From Lacipirellula parvula (GTDB lineage Bacteria; Planctomycetota; Planctomycetia; Pirellulales; Lacipirellulaceae), in assembly GCF_009177095.1 (NCBI RefSeq), contig NZ_AP021861.1, forward strand, positions 6,430,501-6,494,500: a DNA stretch of 64,000 nucleotides, in the 5' to 3' direction. The translations under genes were made by a program, and so were the position numbers. Positions 28,487 to 44,145 of the stretch are shown in pieces. How positions within the stretch are numbered: the stretch's first letter is position 1; each line of letters opens with the position of its first letter. Below the pieces are notes generated by a model, which did not search any database, was not told the origin of the DNA, and was given only the letters and a program-made list of their open reading frames with translations.

Positions 28487-29332
28487 ATGAAGTTGAACTT
28501 GAAGTTGACCGCCGCCGCGCTCAGCCTGCTCGCGGCTTGCCCGGCGGCGCCCGCTTTCGCCGCGGATCCGTGGGCCGACAAAATGGTCGAGTACATCCAA
28601 GGAACCGGCGTCGGCAACGACTTCGTCACCGGTAATCCGATCAACAACCCGCAGACGGCCCTCGGCGAGCCGACCCGCTTCGCCAGCGATCCGGCGAACT
28701 TCGGCGGCCCGACGACTCCCTTCTCTTCCGCTTACCGCGACCACGAAATCGTCTCGATCGGCATCGGCGGTTCGCTGACGTTGCAGTTCGACGAGCCGGT
28801 GCAAAACCATCCGCTCAACCCGTACGGCATCGACCTGCTGATCTTCGGCAACTCGTTCTATGAGCTCGTCTTCGGCCCGAACACCGCGACCGGCAGCGCC
28901 TCGATCGGCGGCGGCCAGATCGAAGTGAGCGCCAACGGCGTCGACTTCGTCCCAGTCTCCGGCGTCGCCGACGGGTTGTTCCCGACGGTTGGTTATCTCG
29001 ACGTCACCGAAGCGTTCCCCTCGCAACATGGCCAAGTCCTCAGCGATTTCACGAAGCCAGTGAATCCTGCCGCGCTCACGAACGTCGCCGGGATGACGAC
29101 CGCTCAAATCATTGCGGCGTACGACGGTTCGGGCGGCGGCGTCGGCGTCGACATCGCCTCGACCGGTCTGGCGAGCATTTCTTACGTGCGGATCACGAAC
29201 CCGCTCACCGCGACGAACACCGTGGAGATCGACGCGATGGCCGACGTCCGCGCGGTGCCGGAGCCGGCGACGATTGCGCTTGGCGCCCTTGCGGCGTGCG
29301 CGTTGTGGAGCGTCCGTCGTCGCCAGCGCTAA
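28487..29332 (+). CDS. PEP-CTERM cell-surface protein, last gene of the B12-riboswitch operon
   Basis: 281 residues with AAGGAGAGATCTC ahead of the ATG. A signal peptide ends near PAAPAFAADP. The central domain has GEPTRFASDPANFGGPTTPF, SIGIGGSLTLQFDEPVQNHP and NPYGIDLLIFGNSFYE, a pattern I associate with surface proteins found in corrinoid-uptake loci; this is recollection, not a search result. The C terminus is a PEP-CTERM signal, VPEPATIALGALAACALW followed by SVRRRQR. It lies 36 bases after the DUF5522 gene. A role in binding or scavenging cobalamins at the surface is a reasonable hypothesis. Confidence 0.82.
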   Translation: MKLNLKLTAAALSLLAACPAAPAFAADPWADKMVEYIQGTGVGNDFVTGNPINNPQTALGEPTRFASDPANFGGPTTPFSSAYRDHEIVSIGIGGSLTLQFDEPVQNHPLNPYGIDLLIFGNSFYELVFGPNTATGSASIGGGQIEVSANGVDFVPVSGVADGLFPTVGYLDVTEAFPSQHGQVLSDFTKPVNPAALTNVAGMTTAQIIAAYDGSGGGVGVDIASTGLASISYVRITNPLTATNTVEIDAMADVRAVPEPATIALGALAACALWSVRRRQR

Positions 29333-29370: not shown

Positions 29371-29604
29371 GAACGCCAACGGCGTTCAATCATCCAGCCC
29401 AGGGTTGGTCGCGCAAGCGACCTACCCTGGGTCATCATCGCCGTCAACATCTCGCAACCCTGTAAGGGTTGAATCGGCCGAGGCTAACTCGATTGATTCA
29501 ACCCTTACAGGGTTGTGGACTTTTTGGACGCTTACCCAGGGTAGATCGCCGAGGCGATCAACCCTGGGCTGGATGATGGAACGCTTTCAGCGTTCGCGTC
29601 ATGC
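29371..29604. repeat. Composite nested palindrome, 'CAGCCCAGGGTTG' family (copy 1)
   Basis: About 235 bases folding as one long hairpin, with outer words CAGCCCAGGGTT and AACCCTGGGCTGG. At least six self-complementary sub-hairpins sit along it, including AACGCCAACGGCGTT, GGTCGCGCAAGCGACC, AACCCTGTAAGGGTT, GATCGCCGAGGCGATC and AACGCTTTCAGCGTT. The only other copy seen is at 42203-42450. Confidence 0.9.
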
Positions 29605-29964
29605 ATAGCGCAGATCCTTTGCGCTGCGTTGTCGTATTGTGCGTCGCGGTCTCAAGCTCAAGGTCGCGTCATTCCGTGTCGCCTCGTTTTGATGTCGTGT
29701 CGTGTCGCTTGTGACGTGGAATGCGATTTTTGGCGACATTAAGCGACGGCGGTAACTCGTTGCGGCCGGATGATTTACGCCAATGACTGTCGTCTTTGTG
29801 TCGCATTTGCCCCTCGCATGGGGGGCGGTTAGGTTTTTTGACAGGATCGCAGGATTGCGCGGATCGACTGGATCGAAGTCGGTGGATCCGGAGGCGAATT
29901 TGCGCGCAATTGCACCAGTGGCCAAACGATCAGTATCTCAAATTGAGTGGCCGAAAGCAATCAA

Positions 29965-30052
29965 AAAGCAGGCCCGCGAATGGCGCGAATGTTCGCGAAT
30001 AACTTGTGGTCAATTTTTCCTCATTCGCGCGTATTCGCGTGATTCGCGGATC
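29965..30052. repeat. Palindromic repeat, 'CGCGAATTACGCGAATG' family (copy 2)
   Basis: Arms CCGCGAATGGCGCGAATG and ATTCGCGTGATTCGCGG resemble the 2941-3022 element. The two copies differ mainly in the loop. Confidence 0.7.
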
Positions 30053-30174
30053 CTTCGTCAAACGCTGGCAATGCAGGCGAAACATCGTTGAACCAATTTC
30101 TTGGCAAAACCGTATGGGGCGGTACTGTGGGTTGAAGAGACGCACCGGTGACTCGCATCACTGGGTGACAAACT

Positions 30175-30241
30175 GCCCGCGGGATGGTTCAATCGATGGG
30201 GCACCTGGAGTTATCTTTCCGAATCATCTCGCGGGCTTTTT
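30175..30241 (+). terminator. Long-loop terminator-like hairpin
   Basis: GCCCGCGGGATGGTTC (30175-30190) pairs with GAATCATCTCGCGGGC (30221-30236) in 14 of 16 positions and is followed by TTTTT. No gene ends immediately upstream, so it may terminate an unannotated transcript. Confidence 0.5.
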
Positions 30242-30275
30242 CTGTTGGAACGTGTTGCAGTAAGTTCCACCCATC

Positions 30276-30484
30276 GGGTGCCACTGGCGTGCCGCCAGTG
30301 CGAACTGCCAACCAAGCCTCCCTACCGACAGACGTGCAAGCCCGCCTGAAAAGCAAAGTCTGAAGCCTAGTCTGTCTGAATCTGGCTTCGCACGTAGCCC
30401 TCAAGGCAGCTGACGTCGTGTCGACCCCCAACGATCAGGAGCGCGAGTCTCCGCTGCAGCACTGGCGACACGCCAGTGGCACCC
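30276..30484. repeat. Inverted pair of 'CACTGGCGTGCCGCCAGTG' repeats, right half inside a CDS
   Basis: Left half GGTGCCACTGGCGTGCCGCC at 30276 onward; right half CACTGGCGACACGCCAGTGG at 30460-30479. Each half is itself a palindrome. The right half is translated within the following methyltransferase gene as HWRHASGT. Similar pairs lie at 33230-33301 and 56329-56479. Confidence 0.85.
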
Positions 30485-31284
30485 AGCAAGCTGGTGTTTC
30501 TCACAACGCGCGGGCGTGGAACGCACTCGCGCGTGACGGCGTCCCGCTCGCTCAACCAGCGCGTGACGACGAACTTGCCAACCCGCTCGCGACGGTTGAT
30601 CCCGCCGGCTGGCTCGGCCCCGACATTCGCGGCTGGCGCGTCCTCTGCCTCGCGGCCGGCGGCGGTCGGCATAGTTCGCTCTATGCGGCAGCCGGGGCGC
30701 AGATCACGGTCGTCGACATCAGCGACGAAATGCTCGCGCTCGATCGCGTCGTCGCCCGCGAGCGGGGTTTCGATGCCCGGCTGGTGCAGACGTCGATGGA
30801 CGAGTTGTCGATGTTTGCGGCGGGCGAGTTCGATCTCGTCATCCACCCGGTGAGCACCTGCTACATCGCCGACGTGGCGCCGGTGTTCGCAGCGGTCGCG
30901 CGAGTGACGCGGCCGGGCGGGCTGTACGTGAGCCAGCACAAGTCGCCGACGAGCTTGCAAACGACGCTACGGCCCGAACGCTCTGGCGGCAACTACGCTC
31001 TCGCCGAGCGTTACTATCGCGAAGGGCCGCTCCCCGCTGCCGAACCAAGTCGGCTGCGCGAGCGGGGGACGCTTGAGTATCTCCACCGCTGGGAGCAACT
31101 GTTGGGCGGCATCTGCCGTGCGGGGTTTGCGATTGAGGACCTGCTCGAACCGATGCATGCCGAGCGCGACGCCGAGCAGGGGAGCTTTGCCCATCGGGCG
31201 CAGTTTGTGGCGCCTTATGTGCGGATCAAGGCGCGACGCGGGACTAGCTCTACAGAGGCCAAGCCTTCAATCGTGCTCGCTTAG
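30418..31284 (+). CDS. Class I SAM-dependent methyltransferase with repeat-encoded N terminus
   Basis: 288 residues from a GTG. The catalytic fold begins near residue 28 (SHNARAWNALARDG). Motif I is VLCLAAGGGRHSSLYAAAG and motif II ITVVDISDEML, with a further match at FDLVIHPVSTCYI. No start codon exists between the repeat and the conserved region, so residues about 14-21 (HWRHASGT) come from the palindromic repeat. The C-terminal 18 bases overlap the convergent membrane-protein gene. The substrate is unknown. Confidence 0.85.
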   Translation: MSTPNDQERESPLQHWRHASGTQQAGVSHNARAWNALARDGVPLAQPARDDELANPLATVDPAGWLGPDIRGWRVLCLAAGGGRHSSLYAAAGAQITVVDISDEMLALDRVVARERGFDARLVQTSMDELSMFAAGEFDLVIHPVSTCYIADVAPVFAAVARVTRPGGLYVSQHKSPTSLQTTLRPERSGGNYALAERYYREGPLPAAEPSRLRERGTLEYLHRWEQLLGGICRAGFAIEDLLEPMHAERDAEQGSFAHRAQFVAPYVRIKARRGTSSTEAKPSIVLA

Positions 31285-32061
31285 GGCGAGTGATTGTTGC
31301 ACGCGACGGCTAGCCTCTAGTCGTCGGCTGAAGCTGCGATCGTCATAGCCTCTCAAGATGAACGCAATCACCAAGTACAACCCGCCGCCGACCGCTCCCC
31401 ACAGGAAATTGTTCGGCGGCTTGATGGAGCCGATCTTCAAGCAACAACCGACCGCCACGAGGGCTAAAGCGACGGAAGCTACTTTGAAGGAGAGTGGAAT
31501 AGCGTCGCGGTGGCAGACCGCCCCAGCGACGCCAGCCGCCACTCCCGCCGCGAGCAAAAGCCTAAACGTCGGCGGCGAGTGCTCGAGCAAACCAAAATCG
31601 CCAGCATTCAACAACCAACTCGCTGCCGCAACGACGGTCATCCAGCCGAGCAGTTCCTTCAACGGGAAACGCATTTGCTCAGTCGAACCAACTTTTTTCC
31701 AATCAAGAACAATCTTCGTTAGCAACGCTGGGACGAAAACGGGCGAAACGACGAGCAGCATTGGGCCAAGTCCTTCGCGAAAGCGCTCCATCGATTGTTC
31801 TCCATCCAAACGACAGACAATCGCTGAACCAACGAGCATCCCAAGCAACAGCCCCATGGCGCGAATCAGTCGCGGCGCACGGCCAACAGCGGCCCAGATC
31901 GCGACTAGCCAGAGTTGGCCGAAGAGAAAACCCGCCATTACTGTGGCTTGAAACCCGACTGGCGGAAGCTCTGGCTTAGCGACCGCGAGGCTGGCGATTG
32001 CCGCCAGAATCAAATAAGTCCACATCGCAGGGCGAGCAACGACCGACAGCATGACGAGCAT
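31267..32061 (-). CDS. Multi-pass membrane protein of unknown function
   Basis: 264 residues with about seven hydrophobic segments, for example WTYLILAAIASLAVA, GMLVGSAIVC and LLLAAGVAAGVAGAV. A central LKELLGWMTVVAAASWLL stretch resembles LLGWMTLLALSTTCVRLADF in the next minus-strand gene, so the two are probably distant paralogues. I do not recognise a family. The start may be at 32061 or at the in-frame ATG nine bases downstream. Confidence 0.65.
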   Translation of the reverse strand: MLVMLSVVARPAMWTYLILAAIASLAVAKPELPPVGFQATVMAGFLFGQLWLVAIWAAVGRAPRLIRAMGLLLGMLVGSAIVCRLDGEQSMERFREGLGPMLLVVSPVFVPALLTKIVLDWKKVGSTEQMRFPLKELLGWMTVVAAASWLLNAGDFGLLEHSPPTFRLLLAAGVAAGVAGAVCHRDAIPLSFKVASVALALVAVGCCLKIGSIKPPNNFLWGAVGGGLYLVIAFILRGYDDRSFSRRLEASRRVQQSLALSEHD

Positions 32062-32202
32062 GTCCCGACGACAGGTTTAGGGAGTTTCGCCGTCGGATTG
32101 TATCAGAATTCGTCGCGCGTTTGAGCACGCGGCGGCGAGGGTTCGCCCGGACCGCGTGGCGGTCCGGCTGAGAGCGGACGCTACAAGAAAAATTCAACCT
32201 TG

Positions 32203-32303
32203 AGGTCCCCTCCCCTTGAGGGGGAGGGTTAGGGAGGGGTGATTAAAGCGGGTACCAGGGCTCTTCCCCCCTCCCCAGCCCTCCCCTCCAGGGGGAGGGA
32301 GCC
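32203..32303. repeat. Purine/pyrimidine-biased palindrome, 'CCCCTCCCCTTGAGGGG' family
   Basis: Left part CCCCTCCCCTTGAGGGGGAG, right part CTCCCCTCCAGGGGGAGGGA, separated by about 40 bases. Only one copy was seen in this window. It lies between two related membrane-protein genes. Confidence 0.65.
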
Positions 32304-32382
32304 AGAACGTTCGTTGACATAGAGACGCAATCGAACTGCCGACGAGCCCCAATGCTGCAAGTTGCTGTCGCAGGATTTCGCT

Positions 32383-33201
32383 TCACGCTTCGTTCTTGAA
32401 GACGCGGAGTTGTGGAGCGAGAGTTGCCACAGCGTCTGGTGGCGTTGGAGATGATGCAAGCTCGGCGACGGGAGCTTGGGCACGAACGCGGTCGATTCTG
32501 CTCACGATCGTCCACGCGACGACGAACGCGAGTGCGCCGGTGGCGACGGCGGCGGCTTCGGGCGGGACGCCGGCGGCAGCCATCACGCCGATGGAGACAA
32601 TGAAGCCGATTGCGGAGAGGAGGCGGGCGAGCCAGCTCTCGCGGTGGGGGCCGATGCTGGCGGCGATGAAGATCGCGGCGGCGCCGGCGAGGCCGCTGCC
32701 GCTGACGAGGTCGCGGGGAGTTTCGTTCAAGAGCGAGAAATCGGCGAGGCGGACGCAGGTGGTGCTTAGCGCCAATAGCGTCATCCAACCGAGCAGCGCG
32801 GCGATCGAGTATTGCGGCTTGCGCGGCGGCTGCGGTGCGGGAGTGGAAACGCTCCAGAGGAACGTGGCCCAGGCGGCGGTGGCGAATGCGGTGAAGGCGC
32901 CGGCTGCGGTCATGAGCGCGAGGACGTGGGGCCAGACGACGTCTTGGTGCATCGACGAACGCCAGCGCGGGATGCCGTAGTCGGGCGCGACGAGCAAGAT
33001 CAGCATCGCCACGAACCACGACGCCCGTGCGAGCGGGTGACTGCGGCCGAGTACGAGCCAGCCGCTGACGACGAAGAGTTGCCCGAGGCCGAGTGCGGAG
33101 GCGAAGGGGCCTTCGTAGTTGATCGACAACGCCACCGCATCGAGGCAGAGGGCCGCGATCCAGAAGAGCCAGGTCAGGGGGCGGTGGTAGAAGTTGGGCA
33201 C
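32383..33201 (-). CDS. Multi-pass membrane protein, likely paralogue of the 31267-32061 product
   Basis: 272 residues with several hydrophobic helices: TWLFWIAALCLDAVALSI, FVAMLILLVAPD and IGFIVSIGVMAAAGV. It shares the LLGWMT-containing segment with its neighbour. The C terminus is cytoplasm-like and polar. No catalytic motif is visible. An alternative antisense frame over the same bases lacks membrane character and is rejected. Confidence 0.65.
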   Translation of the reverse strand: MPNFYHRPLTWLFWIAALCLDAVALSINYEGPFASALGLGQLFVVSGWLVLGRSHPLARASWFVAMLILLVAPDYGIPRWRSSMHQDVVWPHVLALMTAAGAFTAFATAAWATFLWSVSTPAPQPPRKPQYSIAALLGWMTLLALSTTCVRLADFSLLNETPRDLVSGSGLAGAAAIFIAASIGPHRESWLARLLSAIGFIVSIGVMAAAGVPPEAAAVATGALAFVVAWTIVSRIDRVRAQAPVAELASSPTPPDAVATLAPQLRVFKNEA

Positions 33202-33229
33202 GGAGGCAGTAAGGCGATGTTGAGGGTAT

Positions 33230-33301
33230 CACTGGCGTGCCGCCAGTGTTGATGTGGGAACTTGCTCGGCACTTCGCACTGGCGACACGCCAGTGGCACC
33301 C
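33230..33301. repeat. Inverted pair of 'CACTGGCGTGCCGCCAGTG' repeats
   Basis: TCACTGGCGTGCCGCCAGTG at 33229-33248 faces CACTGGCGACACGCCAGTGG at 33278-33297. It lies in the divergent spacer between a membrane-protein gene and the AroE-like gene. Confidence 0.85.
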
Positions 33302-33527
33302 AAATAAATTCAGCTCCGCGGATCGCGGCGCTCGTCCTTTATTCTAGTCAGCCGAGCCGAAATCCCCTGCGAGCGGCGTTGCAGGCCGGTCGACTCAGCG
33401 GTTGAAAATACCGCTCTGGCGGGGGAGAATGGGGCGATCGTAGCAGTCGCACGGCCGCCGGGTTCGCTGGCAGTGCCGGGGTCGACCGCGACTCTCCGTC
33501 CCTTCGCCTTCTCTCGATCGCTGCCGC

Positions 33528-34391
33528 ATGTCGACTCATCCTCAGCAAGACGTCTGTTGCTTGATGGGCGACCCCGTGGCCGGCAACCCGACGCAGTACA
33601 TGCTCGAGAAGGCGTTCGCGGTGGCGAATCTCGACTGGCGGTTCCTCACCTTCGAGGTGTCGGCCGTCGATTTCGAGATGGCCCTCAAGGGCGCCCGCAT
33701 TTTTGAGTTCCGCGGCATCATGCTCGCCCCGCCCCATCGCGGCGAGGTGCATCGCTACCTTGAATCGGTGAGCGACTCGGCACGGCTCAGCGGGCAGGTG
33801 AACTGCCTGCAGCAACTCAACGACGGCCTGCGCGGCGTGAACACCGAGGGGATCGCGATGCGGCGGCTCGCTGAGCCGTATGTGGCGACCAAGGGGCTGC
33901 ACGCGATGATCCTCGGCGCCGGACGGACGGCGAAGTCGATCGCGGCGGAGCTCGCGCTCGCCGGGGCCACGTCGCTCGAACTCGTGTGCGTCGAACCGAC
34001 GCAAGCCGTGCCGCTAGTCGAATCGTTGAAGAGCGATCCGCACACCGCAGCGGTCGACTGCCGCGTGACGCCGTGGCCGAAGAATGGCGAGATCGCCGTC
34101 GGCAACGACGTGCGGCTGCTGCTCAACGCGACGCCGGTCGGCCGGTACGACGGCAAGGCGGCGTTGCCGCTGAACATCGACGCGCTGCCAGCGGAGCTGC
34201 TGGTGTGCGACATGACGTTCAATCCGCCGACGACGCGGCTGATGCGCGATGCTCGGAAGCGAGCGCTGCCGACAGTCGACGGACTGACGCTGCTGGTGGA
34301 GCAAGCATCAGTGGCGTTCGAACTGTGGACCGGCGAGAAGCCCGACCGCGAAGCGATGCGCGAAGCGGTGGAAGAGTTTCTTGTTCTTTAG
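33528..34391 (+). CDS. Shikimate dehydrogenase-like protein with substituted active-site residues
   Basis: 287 residues with the AroE fold order: an N-terminal substrate domain (CLMGDPVAGNPTQYMLEKAF), VNCLQQLNDGLRGVNTEG, then a Rossmann NADP site (MILGAGRTAKSIAAELALAG, about 127-146). Usual catalytic residues differ. The lysine of the N-V-T-x-P-x-K motif reads IMLAPPHR (R71), and the aspartate of N-T-D-G is glutamate (N-T-E-G, E107). The shikimate-binding serines of the H-S-x-S-P motif are also changed. It may act on another substrate, or be a divergent aroE. bioD follows 93 bases later. Confidence 0.8.
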   Translation: MSTHPQQDVCCLMGDPVAGNPTQYMLEKAFAVANLDWRFLTFEVSAVDFEMALKGARIFEFRGIMLAPPHRGEVHRYLESVSDSARLSGQVNCLQQLNDGLRGVNTEGIAMRRLAEPYVATKGLHAMILGAGRTAKSIAAELALAGATSLELVCVEPTQAVPLVESLKSDPHTAAVDCRVTPWPKNGEIAVGNDVRLLLNATPVGRYDGKAALPLNIDALPAELLVCDMTFNPPTTRLMRDARKRALPTVDGLTLLVEQASVAFELWTGEKPDREAMREAVEEFLVL

Positions 34392-34484
34392 CCGCAAAAA
34401 AGCACAAGGGACGCGAAAAGAAATCTCTGGTCCGCCTTCTTAATTTTTTGCGTCGTTTGCGACTCTTCGCGGTAAAAGTATTTC

Positions 34485-35180
34485 ATGGCAACACGCGGTC
34501 TGTTCATCGCCGGCACGAACACTGAAGTCGGCAAGACGCACGTGGCGGCGATGATTGCGCGAGCGCTCGCGACGAGCGGGCGGCGCGTCGGTGTTTACAA
34601 ACCCGTGGCAAGCGGTTGCCAAGCGACGGCCGACGGGTTGATCGCCGAGGATGCGGCGGCGATGTGGGAAGCGGCGGGGCGGCCGCTCACGCTGGAGCAG
34701 GTTTGCCCACAGCGATTTCTGGCGCCACTGGCTCCGCCGCGGGCCGCGCAGGCGGAAGGGCGTCGCATCGACGCGGCGCTGTTGCGGTCGGGACTCGAAC
34801 CTTGGCTCGCAGCGAGCGAGATCGTGATCGTCGAAGGCGCCGGCGGGCTGATGTCGCCGCTGAGCGATGTGGATTACAACATCGACCTCGCCGCGGAACT
34901 GGGCCTGCCGCTGGTGATCGTCGCGGCGAATGAACTCGGCGTGATCAACGCAACGCTGCAAACGCTCATCACCGCCCAAGCAAGGGCGCCGCACTTGCCG
35001 ATCGCGGGCGTCGTGCTGAACCAGGCGATGCAGCGGCCCGATGATGCGAGCTTGGCGTCAAATGCGGAAGAACTCGCCGCCCGCTGCGATGCACCGCTGC
35101 TAACCACGGTCTCACACCGTAGTGGGACGTTTGACCAGCCGGTTGATTGGTTCGCACTCGCCGCGATGAAATTTAATTGA
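34485..35180 (+). CDS. bioD: Dethiobiotin synthetase
   Basis: 231 residues, the normal length. The P-loop is GTNTEVGKT (residues 10-18), followed by GVYKPVASGC, and the switch-like EGAGGLMSPLSDVDYNIDLA carries the second catalytic motif. BioD closes the ureido ring of biotin from diaminopelargonate with CO2 and ATP in the cytoplasm. No other biotin gene is visible in the window. Confidence 0.95.
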   Translation: MATRGLFIAGTNTEVGKTHVAAMIARALATSGRRVGVYKPVASGCQATADGLIAEDAAAMWEAAGRPLTLEQVCPQRFLAPLAPPRAAQAEGRRIDAALLRSGLEPWLAASEIVIVEGAGGLMSPLSDVDYNIDLAAELGLPLVIVAANELGVINATLQTLITAQARAPHLPIAGVVLNQAMQRPDDASLASNAEELAARCDAPLLTTVSHRSGTFDQPVDWFALAAMKFN

Positions 35181-35413
35181 ACCACGACGGCACGACGAAC
35201 ACGACGAGAAGCGAACGAGTCGTCTCTATTCTTGTATTTCCTTTGCGCCTCTGCGCCTTTGCGTGAGATCTTCTTGGGAAAGAATTGTCTCACGCAAAGG
35301 CGCTGAGGCGCAAAGAATTTCGACAATAAAAAAAACGCGAACCACGCCCGTTAAGCGTGATTCGCGGTTAACTTGTTTCTTAGTGACTTCCTTCGTGCCT
35401 TAGCGACTTCGTG
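35179..35413. repeat. Modular palindrome, 'GCGCCTCTGCGCC' family (copy 3)
   Basis: CACGACGGCACGACGAACAC module, then arms CCTCTGCGCCTTTGCGTGAG and CTCACGCAAAGGCGCTGAGG. An additional palindromic word pair, CGCGAACCACGC and GCGTGATTCGCG, lies on its right. It occupies the whole gap between bioD and the GH57 gene. Confidence 0.85.
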
Positions 35414-35427
35414 GTGAATCCCCGCGA

Positions 35428-37611
35428 CTAAACAGCCGCCGCCTCAGCCCACTGCGGCATCCGCGATTCGGCCAGTTGCGTGTCGACGGTCATCCGCATC
35501 GTCATGCTCCAGCGGCCTTCGGCATCCGGAATGACTGTCCAGTGGGGCAACACGGCACACGATTGGTGTACTAGCTCGAAGCCCCCTTCCGACTGGCTCA
35601 CCGTCTCGACCGGGTAGGTCCAGATCGCGGCGGGCTGGTCGAACTTCAGGTGGACGCTGATGCCGAGCCATTCGTCGGTCAGGCTCAGCTGCGTCATGCC
35701 TTGCAGGTCGAGCTGATGGCCGAGCTGTCCCAGGCGATGTCCATGAGCGCCCGAGAAGTAACGGTCGTCGGCGCCCGAGGGCAGACCGGCGAAGTTGAAC
35801 TCCGGAGCAAAGTGCAGGCCGATGTCGGACGGCACGTTTTCGAGCAGGTAGGCAATCTCGAGCGTCGAGTCGCCGGCGTTGAGCGTGATGCCCTTCGTGA
35901 GCTTCACTTGCCGGCCTTGCACGAAGCCGGTTCGCGAGAGCTGCACTTGGACGCGGCCATCGTTGCGGCGGAGCTTCGCTTCGTACGGAGCGAGGACGAA
36001 ATCGCCCTGCTCTTCCGCACGCCCTTGCGAGACCGCAGCGAGATCGGCGTCGGCCGCGAAGAAGTGGTCGACCAGCGAATTTCGCTGCCAGCGGTCGTAA
36101 CCGAGGCGTTCGTTCAAACCTTCTTGCTTGAAGACGACGCGGTCGTGAATGCTGGAGACGTTCTCGCCATCGACCGACGGGCCGCGAAGCACCGCACGGT
36201 GATATGCTTCCTGGCGGCGAGCGAGCGTCGCGAGCAGATTGTGGCAAATCGACTTCACGTCGAGTTCGTACAGCTGGCCGCCCTCGGCCGGCGACACGAG
36301 GCCGAGCAACCGGTTGCTGGCGATCTTCACCTCGGGGCGACCGTCGAGGTTGTAGTCAGCCGAGCTGATTTCAACCCACGGCTGCTGGTCGGCTTGCCAA
36401 CCGCGGTTTTCGTATTGGTCGAGCAAGTTGTTCGCGGCGATCAGCTTCTGGTAGACGGCGTTCCGCAAGTGCGGCAGGTACACGCCGCCGAACGCGCCGT
36501 GCCAGTAGCTGCAGTTGCACTGGCCGCGGTAGAGCTCGAGGCGAGCTTGATCGATCAGGTCGCCCGCGGCGCCGTCATCGACCATCTCCTGCAGCCGGCG
36601 GCTCACCATCTGCATGCGGGCGTACATTTCGTTCGTTTCGGGGTACTTCACTTTGAAGTTCCGCCAGTAGCCGCCACGGACGAACGGCTTGATCAGGTCC
36701 CATTGGCCGTGGTGTTCGAGTTCGTGCTTCGAGTCTTCGAACTGGTTGATGCGCGAGGCCGGCAGCGCCCACTCGACCATTTCGCGGTAGCTGCCTTCGG
36801 GAATGTAGACCTTGCCCAGCGGGGCGACGTTGTCGAACGCTTCGCTCGGCGTGGTGAGCTTGATCCAGTCGGAGTTGTGCTGCAGCGCGTCGAAGAACTG
36901 CGTCAGCCAGCCGCGATCGTAAACATGTTCGCGGGTGCCGGGCCACGTGCCGAACTTCTCGCCGTCGTCGCCGAAGAAGACGACCGCGCCAGGACGCCGC
37001 TCGGCGACGCCGCGGAGGTACTCGATCGTGTCTTGCGGCGGTTGGAACGGAATCGTGTACCGAAGCTTCTCGCTGCCTGGCGCGACGCGCAATATGTGGC
37101 CATCCTCTTCGGTGACGTAGTAGCCGTCGAGCTGCTCTTCGCCGAGGCCGGCGTTCTTGAAGTGGAAGTCGTCGAGAATCGTGTACTCGATGCCGGCGCG
37201 AACGATGTCGCCGGTGAGCGATTGCTCCCACACGCGTTCCGGCATCCACATGCCGCGGACCTTGGCGCCCATGCGGCGTTGCAGCCAGTCGGTGTAGCTG
37301 GTGATCTGGCCGACGCGATCGCGCGAGGGGATCATCGTCATGATCGGTTCGAAGAACGGCCCGCCGACGATTTCGATGCGGCCGGCGGCGACCAGGTTCG
37401 CCAAGCGGTCAACGTACTCGGGATGGCGGGCGTCGAGCCACTCCATCAGCGAGCCGCTCGTGTGGAGACCAATCTTCAGCCCCTCGTAACGCTCAAAGAC
37501 GTTGAGGAACGGCAGATAGCTGTCTTGGTAGGACTGCTCGAAGACTCCGTCGAAGTTGCCGATTGGTTGGTGGTTGTGCAGGACGAGCACAAGGCGCAAA
37601 GGCTGATTCAT
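35428..37611 (-). CDS. GH57-family 4-alpha-glucanotransferase/alpha-amylase
   Basis: 727 residues. GH57 motifs are in order: HNHQP (12-16), GGPFFEP (83-89), WMPERVWE with the expected nucleophile E125, and FFGDDGEKFGTWPG with the acid D215. Spacing agrees closely with the Thermococcus litoralis enzyme (E123/D214). The rest is a DUF1925/DUF1926-like beta-rich C-terminal region. It rearranges or hydrolyses alpha-1,4-glucans in the cytoplasm. glgA and galT lie close by on the same strand, consistent with a glycogen metabolism cluster, although repeats separate the genes. Confidence 0.93.
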   Translation of the reverse strand: MNQPLRLVLVLHNHQPIGNFDGVFEQSYQDSYLPFLNVFERYEGLKIGLHTSGSLMEWLDARHPEYVDRLANLVAAGRIEIVGGPFFEPIMTMIPSRDRVGQITSYTDWLQRRMGAKVRGMWMPERVWEQSLTGDIVRAGIEYTILDDFHFKNAGLGEEQLDGYYVTEEDGHILRVAPGSEKLRYTIPFQPPQDTIEYLRGVAERRPGAVVFFGDDGEKFGTWPGTREHVYDRGWLTQFFDALQHNSDWIKLTTPSEAFDNVAPLGKVYIPEGSYREMVEWALPASRINQFEDSKHELEHHGQWDLIKPFVRGGYWRNFKVKYPETNEMYARMQMVSRRLQEMVDDGAAGDLIDQARLELYRGQCNCSYWHGAFGGVYLPHLRNAVYQKLIAANNLLDQYENRGWQADQQPWVEISSADYNLDGRPEVKIASNRLLGLVSPAEGGQLYELDVKSICHNLLATLARRQEAYHRAVLRGPSVDGENVSSIHDRVVFKQEGLNERLGYDRWQRNSLVDHFFAADADLAAVSQGRAEEQGDFVLAPYEAKLRRNDGRVQVQLSRTGFVQGRQVKLTKGITLNAGDSTLEIAYLLENVPSDIGLHFAPEFNFAGLPSGADDRYFSGAHGHRLGQLGHQLDLQGMTQLSLTDEWLGISVHLKFDQPAAIWTYPVETVSQSEGGFELVHQSCAVLPHWTVIPDAEGRWSMTMRMTVDTQLAESRMPQWAEAAAV

Positions 37612-37937
37612 GGCGGCGTAGAGTGGGGCTGGCGCGGCGGGGCTTCCCTGTTGAATCGCGCGGGGGTGGCGAGTCGTACTATATTTGCGGGTTTTGCGCG
37701 GCGAGGCTAGCGTTCTTGCTGCGGATTGTGCAAATCACGTTGACCTGACGCGGGCATTCGTCGGGTTAACTGGCACAGCCGCGAGCGGCAACCAAGTCAA
37801 CCCAGCTTACTGAATCGGCGCGTTTTGACACGACAGTTGATTTGATTCGGAAGATTCGTGATGCGAATCGCGAGCCAAGCGACTGGCTGGGGAGGTGGTT
37901 AGGGCTGTAAGGCGGAAGAGAATGCTCGGCGAGGCCA
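37612..37937. other. Intergenic region, no feature recognised
   Basis: About 325 bases between the GH57 start and a palindromic repeat. It should hold the GH57 promoter on the minus strand, but no confident -35/-10 pair was picked. Confidence 0.5.
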
Positions 37938-38031
37938 ATGAGCGAATGACGAAGCCCGAATGACGAATGAAGGACGCAAGCGATCCCCATTCGTCATTCG
38001 GGCTTCGTCATTCGTCATTCGTCATTCCGCC
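37938..38031. repeat. Palindromic repeat, 'CGAATGACGAAGCCC' variant (copy 3)
   Basis: Arms GAATGACGAAGCCCGAATG and CATTCGGGCTTCGTCATT. The GCCC/GGGC change relative to copy 1 (ATCC/GGAT) is present on both arms. Its right end provides the last codons and stop of galT. Confidence 0.9.
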
Positions 38032-39004
38032 GCAGGCGCCTTGCCGCGTTTTCTGGCGAGAGGGGACAGATGTGGACGCCGCCGCCCCATTCGAGGCCAG
38101 CCTCGTGGGCCAGGCGGGGGACGATCTCCCAGTGCCAGTGGTACGACGCGGCGTGTTCATCGTCGAACGGCGCCGTGTGGAGGAGCAGGTTGTAGGGGCA
38201 GCCGGGGGCGACCGCTTGCAGCCGCTCGAGAGCATCGAGCAGCATGGCGGCGAGCGGCTCGATCGCGTCGTCGGCGAGTTGGTCGAAGCGAGCGGCATGC
38301 GTCTTGGACAGCAGCCACATCTCGTACGGCTGCCGCGGGGCGTGGGGCGTGACGACCGCATAGGCGTCGTGGTTCGCGACGACGCGCTGCCCGGCGGCGA
38401 GCTCGCGCTGCAGCAAGTCGCAGAAAATGCACGTTCCCTGCGAGCCGTAAAACCGCTCCGCCGCTGCCAGTTCCCGCTCAACGACCGGCAACACGAACGG
38501 CACGGCCGTCACTTGGCTGTGGATATGCTCGAGCGACGCGCCGGCATCGCAGCCAGAGTTTTTGAACACGAGCCCGTGGCGGATGCCCGGCTGCGCGGCC
38601 CAGTGGCGGAGGCGATCGCGGTAGACGCGGACGATGGCCGCTAAGCGCTCCGGCCCGAGGCGGGTGACGTCGAGCAGGTGCTCTGGCGACTCGATGATCA
38701 CCTCATGGGCGCCAAACGCCCCCTCGATCGGCCGATCGATCCGCACCGCCGGGTACTTGTTCGGCACGACGCGGCACTGCCACTGCCCGCTGGCGTCGCT
38801 CACCGTCAACTCAGCAACCGGCGTGTGAATTTCATTCCCGGCACAGAACGGACAATTGCCCCTAACTGCAGGCGCTGTGGGAGGCGTCTCCGACGCCGAT
38901 GAACCACCGCTAACCGCCGCCCCATAATCACTCGGCCGCCCCGCGCGATCCTCGGCAATGTAAACTCGCCGGCCGATGATGGGATCGATGCGAAGTTCAG
39001 GCAT
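38015..39004 (-). CDS. galT: Galactose-1-phosphate uridylyltransferase
   Basis: 329 residues. Zinc-type Cys pairs CPFC and CIFC, NKYPAV, HEVIIESPEH, and the HIT-superfamily active site LEHIHSQ (about 158-164) identify the enzyme, which swaps UDP between glucose and galactose 1-phosphates. Two oddities are visible. A half copy of the GGCGTCTCCGACGCC repeat is translated near residues 34-43 (GGSSASETPPTAP). The last codons (RNDE, stop) fall in another repeat. Neither interrupts a motif. Confidence 0.92.
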   Translation of the reverse strand: MPELRIDPIIGRRVYIAEDRAGRPSDYGAAVSGGSSASETPPTAPAVRGNCPFCAGNEIHTPVAELTVSDASGQWQCRVVPNKYPAVRIDRPIEGAFGAHEVIIESPEHLLDVTRLGPERLAAIVRVYRDRLRHWAAQPGIRHGLVFKNSGCDAGASLEHIHSQVTAVPFVLPVVERELAAAERFYGSQGTCIFCDLLQRELAAGQRVVANHDAYAVVTPHAPRQPYEMWLLSKTHAARFDQLADDAIEPLAAMLLDALERLQAVAPGCPYNLLLHTAPFDDEHAASYHWHWEIVPRLAHEAGLEWGGGVHICPLSPENAARRLRRNDE

Positions 39005-39019
39005 GGCGAGCTAGCGCAA

Positions 39020-39190
39020 ATGACGAATGACGAAATCCGAATGACGAATGTAAAGGCGATGACCTTGTCATCCTGAGCCAAGCGAAGGATCTAGCGACAC
39101 ACGTGGACTTCCAGATTCCTCGCTTCGCTCGGAATGACGCCACGTGCGGTAGCACGCATTCGTCATTCGGATTTCGTCATTCGTCATTCA
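39020..39190. repeat. Palindromic repeat with a second element in its loop (copy 4)
   Basis: Outer arms are the GAATGACGAAATCCGAATG / CATTCGGATTTCGTCATT pair. The loop contains an unrelated palindrome beginning CTTGTCATCCTGAGCCAAGC and ending CGCTTCGCTCGGAATGAC, with CACGTGG/CCACGTG words inside. The right arm supplies the stop codon of glgA. Confidence 0.88.
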
Positions 39191-40671
39191 ATACCCAGCG
39201 GGCCGCGGGCGACGGTGCGTTCGTAGAGCTCGGCGTATTGCTGCGCGCTGTTGCCCCACGACCAGTCTTGCCGCATGCCCGCTTCGATCAGGCGGTTCCA
39301 GGCGGCCTTGTCGCCGAACGTGGCCAGGGCCCGCTCCAATGCTTCCGCGAGGGCGAGCGAGGTGTAATCCTCAAACTTAAAACCGGTCGCCGTGCCGTCG
39401 GCGAGGGTTTGTTCGCTGGCGTCGACCACCGTGTCGACCAGGCCGCCGGTTGCTCGCACCACCGGCACGGTGCCGTACTGCAGGCTGTAGAGTTGGTTCA
39501 GGCCGCACGGTTCGTACTGGCTCGGCATCACGAAGATGTCGGCGCCCGCTTCGATGCGGTGGGCCAACTCGTCGCTGAACTCCAGCCGCACGGCGATACG
39601 ATCGGGGAACTCGCGAGCCAGCTGCGTGAGCAGGTCGTGGTACTTCGGCTCGCCCGTGCCGAGGATAATCCACTGGGCGTCGACGCGCTCGGCCCAATGC
39701 CGCATCACGCGGGTGATCAGGTCAAAGCCCTTTTGATCGGCAAGGCGGCCGATCGCAGCGAGCAGCGGCACGTCGTTCCGCACCGGCAGGCCCGCCCGTT
39801 CTTGGATGTCGGCCTTGCAGCGGGCCTTACCGGCGGCGAAGTCGTGGACGCTGAACCGGTTCGGGCCGAGGTAGCGATCGATCGCCGGGTTCCACTGGTC
39901 GTAGTCGACGCCGTTGATGATGCCGCTGAGGTCGGCGATGCGATGCTGCAGCGTTCCCTCGAGCCCGCAACCGAGCGGCGCCGACAAGATCTCGCGCGAG
40001 TAGGTCGGGCTGACCGTGGTGACCGCGTCGGCGAAGACGATGCCCGTCTTCAGGAAGCTGAGGTTGCCGTAGAACTCCATCTGCCGCCAGTTGAAGTAAC
40101 GCCAGTCGAGCCCGGTAAGGGCCATGTCCCAGTGCCAGAAGTTGCCCTGGTAGGCGAGGTTGTGGATCGTCAGCAGGCTCGTGAGCCCGCGCCATGGCGC
40201 CCGGTCGGCGTAGAGGGTCTTCAGGTAAGCGGGAATGAGGCCCGCGCACCAATCGTGGCAGTGGATCGCATCGACCCGCAGTTCGAGCCGCTGGATCGCT
40301 TCGAGCGTCGCCCGGCAGTAGAAGGTAAACCGCTCGCAGTTGTCCTTGTAGTCTTCGCCATCTTCGCGATAAAGCTGCGGGCGGTCGTAGTAATCGTCCT
40401 GAGCGATCAGGAAGACCGGCACATCGGAGCCTGGCAGCCGCGTGCGGAGGTAGTGGCCGCGGACCATCTTCTGCCCGATCGGGATCTCGACCGAGACGCC
40501 GGTCGGCTCGATCGGGATGTCGGCGTTGCGCGCTTGGCGGAACGCCGGCAGGATGATGATCGGCTTGTGCCCCAGGCGCGCGAGCTCACGCGGCAAGGCG
40601 CCGCAGACATCGCCGAGCCCGCCAGTTTTCGAGAACGGAGCCGCCTCAGAGGTGGCGAACAGAATATTCAC
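39184..40671 (-). CDS. glgA: Glycogen synthase (ADP-glucose type)
   Basis: 495 residues from a GTG at 40671 with GGAG nine bases upstream. The longer open frame to 40776 runs through a repeat and is rejected. The N terminus [20 protein letters not shown] carries the ADP-glucose-binding K-x-[16 protein letters not shown] and [20 protein letters not shown] are the GT5 C-terminal motifs. It extends alpha-1,4-glucan chains in the cytoplasm. Its TGA lies at the very edge of a palindromic repeat. Confidence 0.95.
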
Positions 40672-40723
40672 AGAGGCGCTCCGCTTGAGATTTAACCTGG
40701 GGACGCCACACGACTTCGCAGCA

Positions 40724-40808
40724 AATGACGAATGACGAAATCCGAATGACGAATGAAGGACGCAAGCGATCCCCATTCGTCATTCGTCATTCGGATTTCG
40801 TCATTCGT
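40724..40808. repeat. Palindromic repeat, 'CGAATGACGAAATCC' family (copy 5)
   Basis: Arms ATGACGAAATCCGAATGACG and CATTCGGATTTCGTCATTCG with loop AAGGACGCAAGCGATCCC. It is almost identical to copies 1 and 3 in the loop. Confidence 0.9.
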
Positions 40809-40839
40809 CCGGTCCTTGGCGGTTGCCTTTTCTTCTGAA

Positions 40840-42048
40840 CTACTTCGCCGCCGGTTGCTCCACGACTTCGCCGATGCACTGGGCGACGCGGTCGATGTTA
40901 GCCGGGGTCAGACCTGCGACGTTGATGCGGCCTGATCCGACAATATAGATCGCGTACTCGGAGCGGAGCGTTTCGACCTGCTCTTTCGTGAGGCCCGAGA
41001 ACGAGAACATGCCGCGTTGGCGGGTCATGAAGGAATAATCGCCCGGGACGTCTTGGGCGGCGAGGGCCGCCACCAGGGCATGCCGCATGTCGTTGATCCG
41101 GTTCCGCATCGTGGTGACTTCGCCTTCCCACTGCTTGCGGAGGTCGGCGTCGCGGAGGATCGCCGCGACCACTTCGCCGCCGTGGGCCGGCGGGTTCGAG
41201 TAGTTCGAGCGGATCACCTTGTCGATCTGCGTCTGGACGCTGCTCGCCGCGGCCGCCGTGGGGGCGACGACGAAGAGGGCGCCGACGCGTTCGCGGTAGA
41301 GGCCGAAGTTCTTCGAGTAGGAGCTGCAGACCATCAGCTCGGCGCCCGGGCGGCAAAATTCTTTCAAACCGACGGCGTCTTCCTCCAGCCCGTCGCCAAA
41401 GCCTTGGTACGCGAAGTCGAGCAGCGGCATGACGCCGCGGGCGAACACCGCGTCGGCAATTTGCTTCCACTGGGCCGCGGTCGGATCGATGCCGGTCGGG
41501 TTGTGGCAACAGCCGTGGAGCAGAATGACGTCGCCCGGCGCCATCTTCTCGATCGGGGCCAACATGCCGGCGAGGTTGAGCGAGTTGTTCGGCGGGTCGA
41601 AGTAGGGGTAGGTCTTCGTCGCGATGCCGGCGGCGTTGAAGATTTGCGGATGGTTCGGCCAGGTCGGCTCGCTCATCCACACGGTGGCGCCCTTGAGGTT
41701 GCCCGCAATGAAGTCGGCCGAGACGCGAAGCGCCCCGGTGCCGCCGGGGGTCTGAGCCCACGCGACGCGCTTGCTCGCGAGCGGCTCGCTGCCGGCGCCG
41801 AAGGCGAGCTCGGCCGTCGCCTTGCAGTACTCGGCGAGGCCCGAGATTGGCAGGTACGACTTGGTGGTCGGGTTGGCGGCCAGGCGGCGTTCCGCCTCCT
41901 TCACGCATTCCAAGAGGGGCGTCTTGCCGTTCTCGTCTTGGTAGACGCCGACGCTGAGGTTGATCTTCTCGCTCCGCGGGTCGGCCTTGAACGCCTCGCC
42001 CAATCCCAAAATCGCGTCCTTAGGAGCCGCCTCAATTCGCTCTAGCAT
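40840..42048 (-). CDS. Aspartate/aromatic aminotransferase, class I PLP enzyme
   Basis: 402 residues from ATG 42048 (MLERIEAAPKDAILGLGEAF), the canonical start of the AspC/TyrB group; the 16-residue upstream extension is rejected. The pyridoxal lysine is in SSYSKNFGLYRERVG, with the substrate-binding arginine in GSGRINVAGL near the C terminus and HGCCHNPTGIDPT before it. It transfers amino groups between aspartate or aromatic amino acids and 2-oxoglutarate. AspC and TyrB cannot be separated by eye. Confidence 0.93.
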   Translation of the reverse strand: MLERIEAAPKDAILGLGEAFKADPRSEKINLSVGVYQDENGKTPLLECVKEAERRLAANPTTKSYLPISGLAEYCKATAELAFGAGSEPLASKRVAWAQTPGGTGALRVSADFIAGNLKGATVWMSEPTWPNHPQIFNAAGIATKTYPYFDPPNNSLNLAGMLAPIEKMAPGDVILLHGCCHNPTGIDPTAAQWKQIADAVFARGVMPLLDFAYQGFGDGLEEDAVGLKEFCRPGAELMVCSSYSKNFGLYRERVGALFVVAPTAAAASSVQTQIDKVIRSNYSNPPAHGGEVVAAILRDADLRKQWEGEVTTMRNRINDMRHALVAALAAQDVPGDYSFMTRQRGMFSFSGLTKEQVETLRSEYAIYIVGSGRINVAGLTPANIDRVAQCIGEVVEQPAAK

Positions 42049-42780
42049 TGAAATTCCGAATGGTGTGGTGTCGGGGTGACCGACGGGTGCCGCCAAGTGT
42101 TGGTGGGGATGTCAGTTGTTAGTGGTCCGTTGTCAGTTGCGAAGACCGGTGGGGTCACTTCGCTGTACGTCGCCTAGCGTCGCACTCCCTCTTGCTATCG
42201 ACGCATTCCAACGCTGCAGGCGTTGCATCTTCCAGCCCAGGGTTGATCGCGCTAGCGATCTACCCTGGGACCATCGTCGCCCATCGATCCGCAACCCTGA
42301 AGGGGTTGAATCAGCGCTGCATACGAACTGATTCAACCCCTGCAGGGTTGTGGTTACCATCACGCCGCTTTCCCAGGGTAGCCGGCTGCGCCGCCAACCC
42401 TGGGCTGGAGGATGTAACGCCGTTGGCGTATCAAACCAGCGCGTCATGCAGCAAGTCGCTGCCGACGACGCCCTCGGTCCAGACCTAGGAACTACTAACC
42501 TGATTCCAGGTTCGGAGCGCCAAAACGCAAGCGAATCGCCGCAACTGATCACTGACGACGGACAACTGACCAATCGCCGCCCGTTGACCCTCCCGCGCGG
42601 CGCATGCGACAATGATAAGTCCCGCGGCAGCCTGTTCCAAGGCGTCAGACGAGCCCCGGCGGCACTCCGTGCGGCTCTATTCCTAGCCCCCGGCTCCGCC
42701 GGGGGGTCGCACCGTCGCAACGCTCCGCCCACCGGCACTTCACCCCCTGGCAGAGCCAGGGGCTAGATACGGAATCATCG
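42049..42780. other. Repeat-filled intergenic region
   Basis: About 730 bases. From left it holds a CACTTGGCGG remnant, a piece of the TCAGTGGTCCGTTGTCAGTT family, the composite palindrome at 42203-42450, the partner piece of the TCAGTGG family (about 42544-42572), and a CCCCCGGCTCCGCCGGGGG / CCCCTGGCAGAGCCAGGGG pair at about 42686-42768. No supported gene. Confidence 0.7.
42203..42450. repeat. Composite nested palindrome, 'CAGCCCAGGGTTG' family (copy 2)
   Basis: Same architecture as 29371-29604, and both end CGCGTCATGCA. Sub-hairpins differ but remain palindromic: AACGCTGCAGGCGTT, GATCGCGCTAGCGATC, AACCCTGAAGGGGTT and AACGCCGTTGGCGT. Confidence 0.9.
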
Positions 42781-43992
42781 ATGGCAACGACTCAGCGTCT
42801 CGGTCTCTGGCTCATTGGCGCCCGCGGGGGCGTCGCCGTCACCGCCATTGCCGGGATCATCGCGCAGCGGCTCGGCCTCGCCGACGGCACCGCTCTGGTG
42901 AGCGAGTTGCCGCAATTCGCTCACCTGCCGCTCGCGAAGTGGGACGACATCGTCATCGGCGGCCACGAGATCCGCTCGGCCCCGCTGGCCGACGAGCTCG
43001 AACGACTCCACCGCGAGAGCCGCGTCCTCTCGCCGCAGCTGGTCGCCGCCTGCCGGCCGGAGCTCGAGAAGATCGACGCCGAGATCCGCCCCGGCACGCT
43101 CTGGAACGTGGGGGCGAAGATCACCGAGCTCGCCGACTTCCCGCCGCCGGCGAACCCCGCTGAGCAACTGCCGCGCGACATCCTCAAGCGGCTGCAGGCT
43201 GATCTCACCGACTTCCAGACGCGCCATAAACTCGACACGGTGGTGATTCTCAACGTCTCGTCGACCGAGCCGCTGCCGAATCAGGCCCTCTGGCCCGCCA
43301 CGTGGGCCGAGGCCGAGGCGTCGCTCGCGCGGCCCGACTGCCCGCTGCCGGCGAGCTCGCTCTACGCGATCGCAGCGCTCGATCTTGGACTGCCGTTCGT
43401 GAACTTCACCCCCTCTTTGGGGGCACTGCCCGCGGGCATCGACGAACTCGCGCGGCTTCGCAACACATGCCACGCCGGTCGCGACGGCAAGACTGGCGAA
43501 ACATTGATGAAGAGCGTGCTGGCGCCGATGTTCGCCGCGCGAAATCTCAACGTCATGAGCTGGGTCGGCCATAATATTTTTGGCAACCTCGATGGCAAGG
43601 TTCTCGATGACCCCGCCAACAAGCAGGCGAAGATTCAGAGCAAGGATCGGCTCATCACCGACATCCTCGGATACACTCCGCAGACGCTGATTTCGATCGA
43701 GCACATCGAGAGTCTCGGCGACTGGAAGACGGCGTGGGATCACATCCACTTCCAAGGGTTTCTCGGCACGCCGATGACGCTGCAGTTCACTTGGCAGGGA
43801 TGCGATTCGATCCTCGCGGCGCCACTGGCGATCGACCTCGTGCGGTTCACGGCGCTGGCGAAAAAACGCGGTGAAACAGGGGCTTTGCCGTGGCTGGCGA
43901 GCTTTTTCAAGAGCCCGCAAGGGAACCCGCCGCCGGCGTTCGCGGACCAATACCGCGCGCTCGAAGCGTGGGCTCAAGACGCCAAGAATTGA
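42781..43992 (+). CDS. Inositol-3-phosphate synthase family protein
   Basis: 403 residues. The N-terminal NAD site is LIGARGGVAVTAIAG (about 11-25). The catalytic core GRDGKTGETLMKSVLAPMFA (about 233-252) matches myo-inositol-1-phosphate synthase, as do SWVGHNIFGNLDG and DHIHFQGFLGTPM. The enzyme converts glucose 6-phosphate to inositol 3-phosphate in the cytoplasm. It stands alone, with a repeat-rich spacer on each side. Confidence 0.9.
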   Translation: MATTQRLGLWLIGARGGVAVTAIAGIIAQRLGLADGTALVSELPQFAHLPLAKWDDIVIGGHEIRSAPLADELERLHRESRVLSPQLVAACRPELEKIDAEIRPGTLWNVGAKITELADFPPPANPAEQLPRDILKRLQADLTDFQTRHKLDTVVILNVSSTEPLPNQALWPATWAEAEASLARPDCPLPASSLYAIAALDLGLPFVNFTPSLGALPAGIDELARLRNTCHAGRDGKTGETLMKSVLAPMFAARNLNVMSWVGHNIFGNLDGKVLDDPANKQAKIQSKDRLITDILGYTPQTLISIEHIESLGDWKTAWDHIHFQGFLGTPMTLQFTWQGCDSILAAPLAIDLVRFTALAKKRGETGALPWLASFFKSPQGNPPPAFADQYRALEAWAQDAKN

Positions 43993-44145
43993 ACCACGAC
44001 GGCACGACGAACACGACGGAAAAGTGGAACCGCCGATGGACGCCGATAGGCGCAAATGAATCACGATCTGCGTTCATCCGCGTGCATCGGCGGTTTCGCA
44101 TTGTTGTCTTCAATTCGTCGTGTTCGTTGTGTCGTCGTGGTTCGA
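43991..44145. repeat. Modular palindrome with a different core (copy 4 of the CACGACGG module)
   Basis: Outer modules CACGACGGCACGACGAACAC and GTGTTCGTTGTGTCGTCGTG enclose an unrelated inner palindrome, AACCGCCGATGGACGCC / GCGTGCATCGGCGGTT, in place of the usual GCGCCTCTGCGCC hairpin. Confidence 0.85.

Follow-up and report, generated by a model that had tools for sequence, protein, structure and literature searches.

We describe two copies of a composite palindromic element in a stretch of 64,000 nucleotides from the planctomycete Lacipirellula parvula (hereafter the window; contig NZ_AP021861.1, positions 6430501-6494500, i.e. contig C1 of genome G000, which is 6.92 Mb in size). Each copy is probably a non-autonomous miniature element akin to a REPIN, in which the two ends of a single-strand DNA transposon, which would be recognised by their shape, stand in inverted orientation, and we favour this reading because the same half-units flank HuH/Y1 transposase genes in related genomes. 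REPINs and bacterial interspersed mosaic elements (BIMEs) are described as inverted doublets of repetitive extragenic palindromic (REP) sequences that form hairpins and are thought to be mobilised in trans by RAYT (REP-associated tyrosine transposase, TnpA_REP), a Y1 transposase (PMC3116915). The window elements resemble them in being dispersed and in combining two inverted REP-type hairpins with a spacer, an arrangement found in 14 composites of the L. parvula genome, but differ from them in carrying two extra mini-hairpins around each REP, in the head preceding the REP and in the association with transposases whose motifs are those of another subclass.

Both copies in the window are paired inverted half-units, each consisting, from outside to inside, of a mini-hairpin (H1), a REP-like hairpin (H2), approximately 22 variable bases and a second mini-hairpin (H3). 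H1 has a 7-bp stem and a 3-base loop and is followed by ten bases that mostly end in CCAG or TCAG; H2 has an 8-bp basal stem, a T·T mismatch, a 6-bp upper stem and a short loop; and H3 has a 7-bp stem and a 3-base loop, with 16-23 bases between H2 and H3 in 29 of 30 L. parvula units. Copy 1 extends over 29371-29595, where R1, a covariance model built from 26 half-units of L. parvula only, matches at 29371-29477 on the + strand (107.1 bits) and 29493-29595 on the - strand (103.4 bits). Its left (+) half-unit comprises H1 at 29371-29387 (columns 1-17 of the 26-row alignment, A1), a CCAG head at 29394-29397 that forms the 5' foot of the REP-like hairpin where canonical REPs have GTAG (66-row alignment, A3), H2 with the conserved T·T mismatch at 29398-29431 (inverted repeat I4) and H3 with a loop of GNA type at 29455-29471 (inverted-repeat search and A1); its right (-) half-unit comprises H3 at 29499-29515 (inverted-repeat search and R1 match), H2 at 29535-29568 (inverted repeat I3) and H1 at 29579-29595 (R1 match). 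Copy 2 extends over 42209-42431, with R1 matches at 42209-42314 (+, 103.1 bits) and 42328-42431 (-, 94.3 bits). On its left (+) side H1 lies at 42209-42225 (R1 match) and H3 at 42292-42308 (inverted-repeat search and word check), each with a T·G closing pair, and H2 lies between them at 42236-42269 (inverted repeat I4); on its right (-) side follow H3 at 42334-42350 (inverted-repeat search and R1 match), H2 at 42372-42404 (inverted repeat I5) and an H1 that has lost its outer pairs at 42415-42431 (R1 match; alignment row 42328-42431). An earlier note on this DNA, made from the letters alone, had placed the copies at 29371-29604 and 42203-42450; all nine words that it quoted are present at the copies for which it gave them, which confirms the observation. 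It had also described the mini-palindromes as staying self-complementary. Not all are perfect: AACGCTGCAGGCGTT and AACCCTGAAGGGGTT each contain one T·G pair, the H1 on the right of copy 2 is without its outer pairs and the REP-like hairpins keep their mismatch. Stretches slightly wider than the elements have predicted single-stranded DNA folds of -88.2 kcal/mol (z -15.3) for copy 1 and -84.9 kcal/mol (z -11.7) for copy 2, and 0/200 shuffled sequences folded as well as either.

As with REPINs, the repeats occur at the flanks of a cognate Y1 transposase, although in relatives and not within L. parvula itself. At loci L157 (genome G008) and L166 (G024) half-units lie on both sides of one open reading frame (ORF) of approximately 150 aa that matches PF01797 (Y1_Tnp), which they flank directly (L157/L184 and L166/L191). 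R1 matches were found in 27 genomes of a family sample of 40 that includes L. parvula (E<=0.01), the transposase is present in 30 of the 40 (E<=1e-5), and at 8 of 30 transposase loci R1 half-units lie on both sides, + upstream and - downstream (E<=1e-5). Since R1 knows only one sequence type, a second flank search was made that was independent of sequence and accepted any mini-hairpin, REP-like hairpin and mini-hairpin at the right spacing. Such a triple was detected in 25 of 52 flanks at 26 family loci (L193, L195, L201 and L213 left out), compared with 45 of 1040 shuffled flanks and 11 of 156 distant windows. Across the Planctomycetota it was detected in 36 of 58 flanks at 29 loci, 14 of them positive on both sides, compared with 52 of 1160 shuffled flanks (4.5%); this phylum test drew on a sample of 79 genomes and covered 29 of their 39 transposase matches. 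Within the same 79 genomes the transposase accompanies half-units, being present in 9 of 12 genomes with them and in 6 of the 67 genomes that lack them (P=4e-6, or 1.7e-5 when L. parvula is left out). Stem sequences vary widely among the transposase loci and the bases before the REP mostly end in AG (for example GTAG, CCAG, ATAG, ACAG, AAAG). The type of end follows the transposase tree, with 19 changes among 63 proteins, 24 of which have the type 'other', compared with 35.0 in shuffled sets, 0/200 of which were as low.

By their motifs, and apart from the tree of Quentin et al. (2018), the flanking transposases are assigned to TnpA_Y1 subclass 1.2, for which DH[IV]H, WQ and Y---Q--HH motifs and a length of approximately 148-150 aa are reported (PMC6006769). 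Among the 63 proteins, Y---Q--HH occurs in 60, WQ in 62 and DH[VIL]H, in which L was also allowed, in 57; all three occur in 53, and the median length is 150. Three proteins scored 48.6, 55.6 and 79.9 bits against NF033573, an IS200/IS605 transposase model with a cut-off of 55 bits, and no sequence match to the transposase was found in PDB at E<=0.01. Six genomes that by title belong to cyanobacteria and Bacteroidetes contained no homologue at E<=1e-10. A tblastn search with the transposase against 72,556 plasmid records returned two hits in Bacteroidota (E<=1e-15), one in Persicobacter and one in Bernardetia. The homologue on the Persicobacter plasmid CP012861 is 43.7% identical and has R1 matches on both sides, + upstream and - downstream (45.8 and 40.7 bits), and both ends show H1, a TAG foot, a REP-like hairpin, approximately 23 bases and H3. 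The same plasmid carries 14 R1 matches, 13 of which lie in a region of about 13 kb around the gene and make up the flanking pair, five further +/- pairs and one single unit.

The paired changes that the earlier note saw between the two window copies extend to a larger set of copies, in which the two arms change together. In 26 L. parvula half-units, aligned by MAFFT alone, 98.2% of stem cells are paired, nine pairs show two-sided changes (5.0 when shuffled) and the covariation score is 0.222, compared with 0.104 when shuffled and at most 0.052 in slid registers. The corresponding values for 66 half-units of the genus (30 from L. parvula, 26 from G015, 8 from G023 and one each from G028 and G032; L. 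parvula half-units at 6871044 and 6871166 were left out) are 97.4% paired, two-sided changes at 16 of 28 pairs (7.9 shuffled) and in 148 cells (31.1 shuffled), and a score of 0.273 (0.119 shuffled, slid registers at most 0.057, 0/500 shuffles as high), in an alignment that was made by fitting to the model and for that reason leans towards structure; neither set of shuffles keeps relatedness. The left hairpin of an element need not match the right one, as in L007 with CCCGGGG on the left and CCCAGGG on the right, and so pairing is kept within each local hairpin. Two further features give a hint, from sequence, that the strand running from outside to inside is the one that folds. T·G is found 43 times and C·A not once at the two pairs that close loops, 7-11 and 93-110, in units of both strands; at pair 7-11 alone T·G occurs in 19 of 66 units and C·A in none, against 7.5 expected (P=5e-6). 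In addition, the loop is GNA in 61 of 62 three-base H3 loops of the 66-row alignment, and GNA triloops are unusually stable in DNA.

The mechanism that we envisage is as follows. An end module comprises H1, 10-12 or so bases usually ending in AG, a REP-like hairpin (with a mid-stem mismatch in the family of the window), 20-25 free bases and H3. In related genomes such ends flank a 150-aa HuH/Y1 transposase of subclass 1.2 type, and in the miniature elements a short linker, 9-36 bases long in 21 of the 22 composites measured, stands where relatives have the transposase gene. The ends would fold on the outside-to-inside strand when the DNA is single-stranded, for example during replication, and the transposase would bind and cleave them and move the elements in trans, recognising shape, foot and mismatch and few stem bases. 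If so, stem bases would be free to drift while paired, and mispairs would arise singly and be mostly purged or compensated by selection. The elements thus pictured would be mobile.

Several observations weigh against this reading. No triple was detected at 27 of 52 family and 22 of 58 phylum flanks, and some of the triples counted are doubtful by eye. There are four PF01797 hits in the L. parvula genome, none of them an intact transposase of matching end type, and for this reason the window copies may be orphans. In L. parvula no more than one or two pairs show signs of recent copying, as the spacers are hardly more alike than when shuffled (mean identity 0.53 compared with 0.51, spacers below 14 bases left out; H1 0.76, H2 0.79, H3 0.93). 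The strand bias in wobble pairs is limited to the two loop-closing pairs, the other 26 pairs giving 16 versus 11 (P=0.44), and could be inherited, while folding predictions give the two strands the same or almost the same energy; the bias was therefore set aside as proof of a single-stranded DNA fold and is used weakly. Finally, the homologue on the Bernardetia plasmid has no R1 match. Around this more distant homologue (L371), repeated AGCTGC.. palindromes are seen on both sides (485-580 and 1095-1165), with a GTAG word upstream; they are possibly a weaker version of the three-hairpin ends. As to the four L. parvula hits, only L030/L207 (41% identical) gave an R1 match, a weak one on the downstream side, and the ends of L030 differ in sequence from the window copies and share their plan on at least the downstream side. 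A lone REP-like hairpin of the type flanking L030, which is an intact transposase of the L. parvula genome, occurs in the window at 53209-53228 (TAGCCAGGGGC...GCCCC); 100 shuffled sequences gave a mean of 0.00. A half-unit of the window type is still found next to a decayed transposase in G023.

The distribution of the elements bears on their history. The L. parvula genome contains 32 strong half-units (R1, >50 bits) at 18 places, namely the 14 composites, which are approximately 160-230 bp long, and four single halves, and five of six genus genomes have R1 matches. In the 66 genus half-units the 5' foot is CCAG in 39, TCAG in 22, GTAG in 3 and CAAG and ACAG in one each, whereas GTAG is the foot of 33 of 38 half-units in G003; with GTAG so rare in the genus, the half-units of L. 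parvula are REP-like rather than canonical REPs. Like REPINs, the elements vary in presence between relatives. G023 lacks the element at all five sites whose two flanks could be aligned (those of copies 1 and 2 in the window, L240, L244 and L251), with 22 bp between the flank matches at the copy 2 site, and also at a sixth, L252, of which one flank aligned; at L239 it carries an element at another point of the interval. The remaining ten L. parvula stretches gave no match to the fetched parts of G023, or one short and seemingly non-syntenic match. The window copies may represent a local duplication, since they are the second most similar of 231 pairs by non-hairpin sequence and have a flank word in common, CGCGTCATGCA, which is found in 0/16 other L. 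parvula stretches (16 other places, plus one weak match); the earlier note had taken this word for an anchor of the element, yet it lies outside the half-units. Copy 1 and an element on contig C24 of G015 have matching flanks and differ by two-sided changes at three stem pairs, a fourth being mispaired in G015. Their orthology is doubtful, as their non-hairpin similarity ranks 13th of 231 and G023 has no element at the site, and the pair was not used as proof of paired change in place. A scan of named genomes with an 18-base pattern was discarded as too unspecific, most of the matches listed looking like chance; Lacipirellula limnantheis and a Pirellula metagenome-assembled genome were among them.

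The same data speak to the alternative that the elements have been adopted by the host, for example at mRNA ends or for nucleoid or gyrase binding, so that host-level selection keeps the hairpins at each locus after loss of the transposase. Hairpins that remain 97.4% paired while spacers approach chance identity would suit such a role, as would the lack of an intact transposase of matching end type in L. parvula and the position of copy 1, 38 bases past the stop codon of an ORF for a PEP-CTERM protein (28487-29332). Adoption locus by locus is, however, at odds with sites that G023 does not share and with the doubtful orthology at copy 1 between L. parvula and G015, and we consider it unlikely. 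A role as terminators in particular was rejected, as scans found a single terminator-like match in copy 1 and nothing of the kind in copy 2, about the level of shuffled sequence (means 0.8 and 0.4).

The earlier note had explained the paired changes either by selection on hairpin structure or by a mechanism that regenerates perfect palindromes; the data support the former and disfavour the latter as the main cause. One-step templated repair, by quasipalindrome-associated template switching, would regenerate hairpins and so yield paired changes without selection, and template switching is described as able to create or mend stems (PMC8794818). Such a process should erase the T·T mismatch in the middle of the H2 stem, however, which is kept in 64 of the 65 half-units that have letters there while the surrounding pairs covary, and this is the strongest single argument against one-step repair. 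Moreover, of the stem states seen in a single genus half-unit, 39/45 are not Watson-Crick, whereas 15/18 of those seen in at least three half-units are two-sided Watson-Crick (P=2.5e-7, or 3.5e-6 with wobble counted as paired). To the credit of repair, six singleton states in the genus are two-sided Watson-Crick, as are 7 of 15 in G003 (aligned without the outer two H1 pairs and, for this count, also without four inner H2 pairs), although one of the seven is a truncated H1 and five lie in three atypical units. The young composites of G003 (L254-L273) are heterodimers of two end types, with H2 AAGCGGC..GCCGCGCC and CGCCGC..GCGGCG. Between G003 units, double (Watson-Crick to Watson-Crick) and single differences stand, from the most to the least similar spacers, at 3:12, 8:26, 33:59, 103:118 and 1265:555; these comparisons are non-independent and the counts descriptive, with single non-Watson-Crick and other double differences left out, as were spacers below 14 bases. 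The three doubles in the youngest class can all be traced to a single unit whose H1 is truncated, and once the H1 of both truncated units is left out the series becomes 0:12, 7:26, 26:59, 99:118 and 1222:555. Part of this trend stems from comparing left with right type; it is present in right-type ends alone (0:7, 2:14, 10:32, 62:70, 237:140), and its absence from left-type ends (0:5, 2:9, 14:27, 8:32, 2:9) is compatible with repair, as are two G003 units that a double change separates from units whose spacers are 0.85-0.91 alike. Taken together, the data fit mutation in steps, with mispairs purged or compensated, better than repair in a single step, and the paired changes look like selection for folding rather than the work of a palindrome-perfecting machine. 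On the strength of the retained mismatch and of the frequency spectrum of stem states in the genus, templated repair is rejected as the main cause, a part in which it is very improbable, though occasional templated events may occur.

That the composite is a structured non-coding RNA, folding at the RNA level, is scarcely credible in spite of covariation of the kind used to call RNAs, since one transcript of so symmetric an element would read its halves in opposite senses, yet units of both strands share the T·G over C·A bias, since the units of relatives flank a single-strand transposase on opposite strands, and since no Rfam family scored above its gathering threshold at the element in the five loci searched, which included both window copies. 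An Acido-Lenti-1 RNA (RF01687, 42.8 bits) was detected in L012 at 364-411, approximately 1.1 kb from one element.

Several known systems come close to the elements described here. For REPINs, compensatory changes in the hairpins were already reported in 2011 (Bertels & Rainey, PMC3116915). In the IS200/IS605 family, IS608 and ISDra2 are reported to have subterminal hairpins in whose stem a base is unpaired or mismatched (PMC8266576); the likeness lies in the HuH/Y1 transposase and the mismatched stems, whereas the ends described here are inverted relative to each other, with three hairpins apiece. In IS608 the two hairpins are on the same strand. Cleavage of Escherichia coli REPs is reported to appear to need an unpaired state in the stem and not its particular bases, and cleavage was impaired for two other REP types whose stems were given mismatches (PMC8266576), results which by analogy fit the combination of a retained mismatch with otherwise paired stems. 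GTAG-tagged REPs are characterised by a GTAG head and form dimers, including heterodimers with different stems, and the GTAG-23 elements of T. roseum sit inside small palindromes, some dimers having structured spacers (Di Nocera et al., 2013; PMC3733652); a hairpin-REP-hairpin unit flanking a transposase is not described in the part of that paper considered here. As for the transposase, the portion of Quentin et al. (2018; PMC6006769) considered here tabulates REP as 'no' for subclass 1.2, which it places mostly in Cyanobacteria and Bacteroidetes and describes as generally without typical IS200 end structures; relative to that account, our results add REP-type ends, though not at every flank, in Planctomycetota and on one Bacteroidota plasmid. 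No prior description of three-hairpin ends was found in the literature on REPINs and RAYTs, REP transposases and Planctomycetes palindromes, as searched through titles and the starts of abstracts of the papers listed, mostly outside subscription papers and supplements. The three-hairpin end on subclass 1.2 thus appears to be new, while REPINs and their compensatory changes were already known. We also incline, by a small measure, to the broader view that TnpA_Y1 subclass 1.2, said to be without REPs and IS properties, is the transposase of a distinct and widespread class of single-strand transposons with inverted three-hairpin ends of fixed spacing, recognised by shape and with stems that turn over freely, which would span at least Planctomycetota and Bacteroidota and seed REPIN-like miniatures in both. 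The ends offer a candidate DNA substrate, with proposed boundaries, for a subclass of HuH transposases reported to have none, and show a three-hairpin plan common to two phyla despite differing stem sequences. They also constitute a natural data set on how hairpin pairing is kept up, whether selection favours compensation step by step or a template guides repair, and the data lean to compensation.

Other features near the copies were noted in passing. Beyond copy 1 lies a methyltransferase ORF (30418-31284), with several other dispersed repeats in between (approximately 29690-30490), and copy 2 is followed by an ORF for myo-inositol-1-phosphate synthase (42781-43992). A separate dispersed palindrome (ATGACGAATGACGAA... 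/ ...TTCGTCATTCGTCAT) at 40724-40810 has many copies in L. parvula, G023 and G015, and a further dispersed inverted repeat (GAACCACGACG ... CGTCGTGGTTC) at 43984-44146 has many copies in the genus. In G015, contigs C1 and C37 start inside a half-unit and C20 starts at most 20 bases from one, so that the elements seem to break the assembly.

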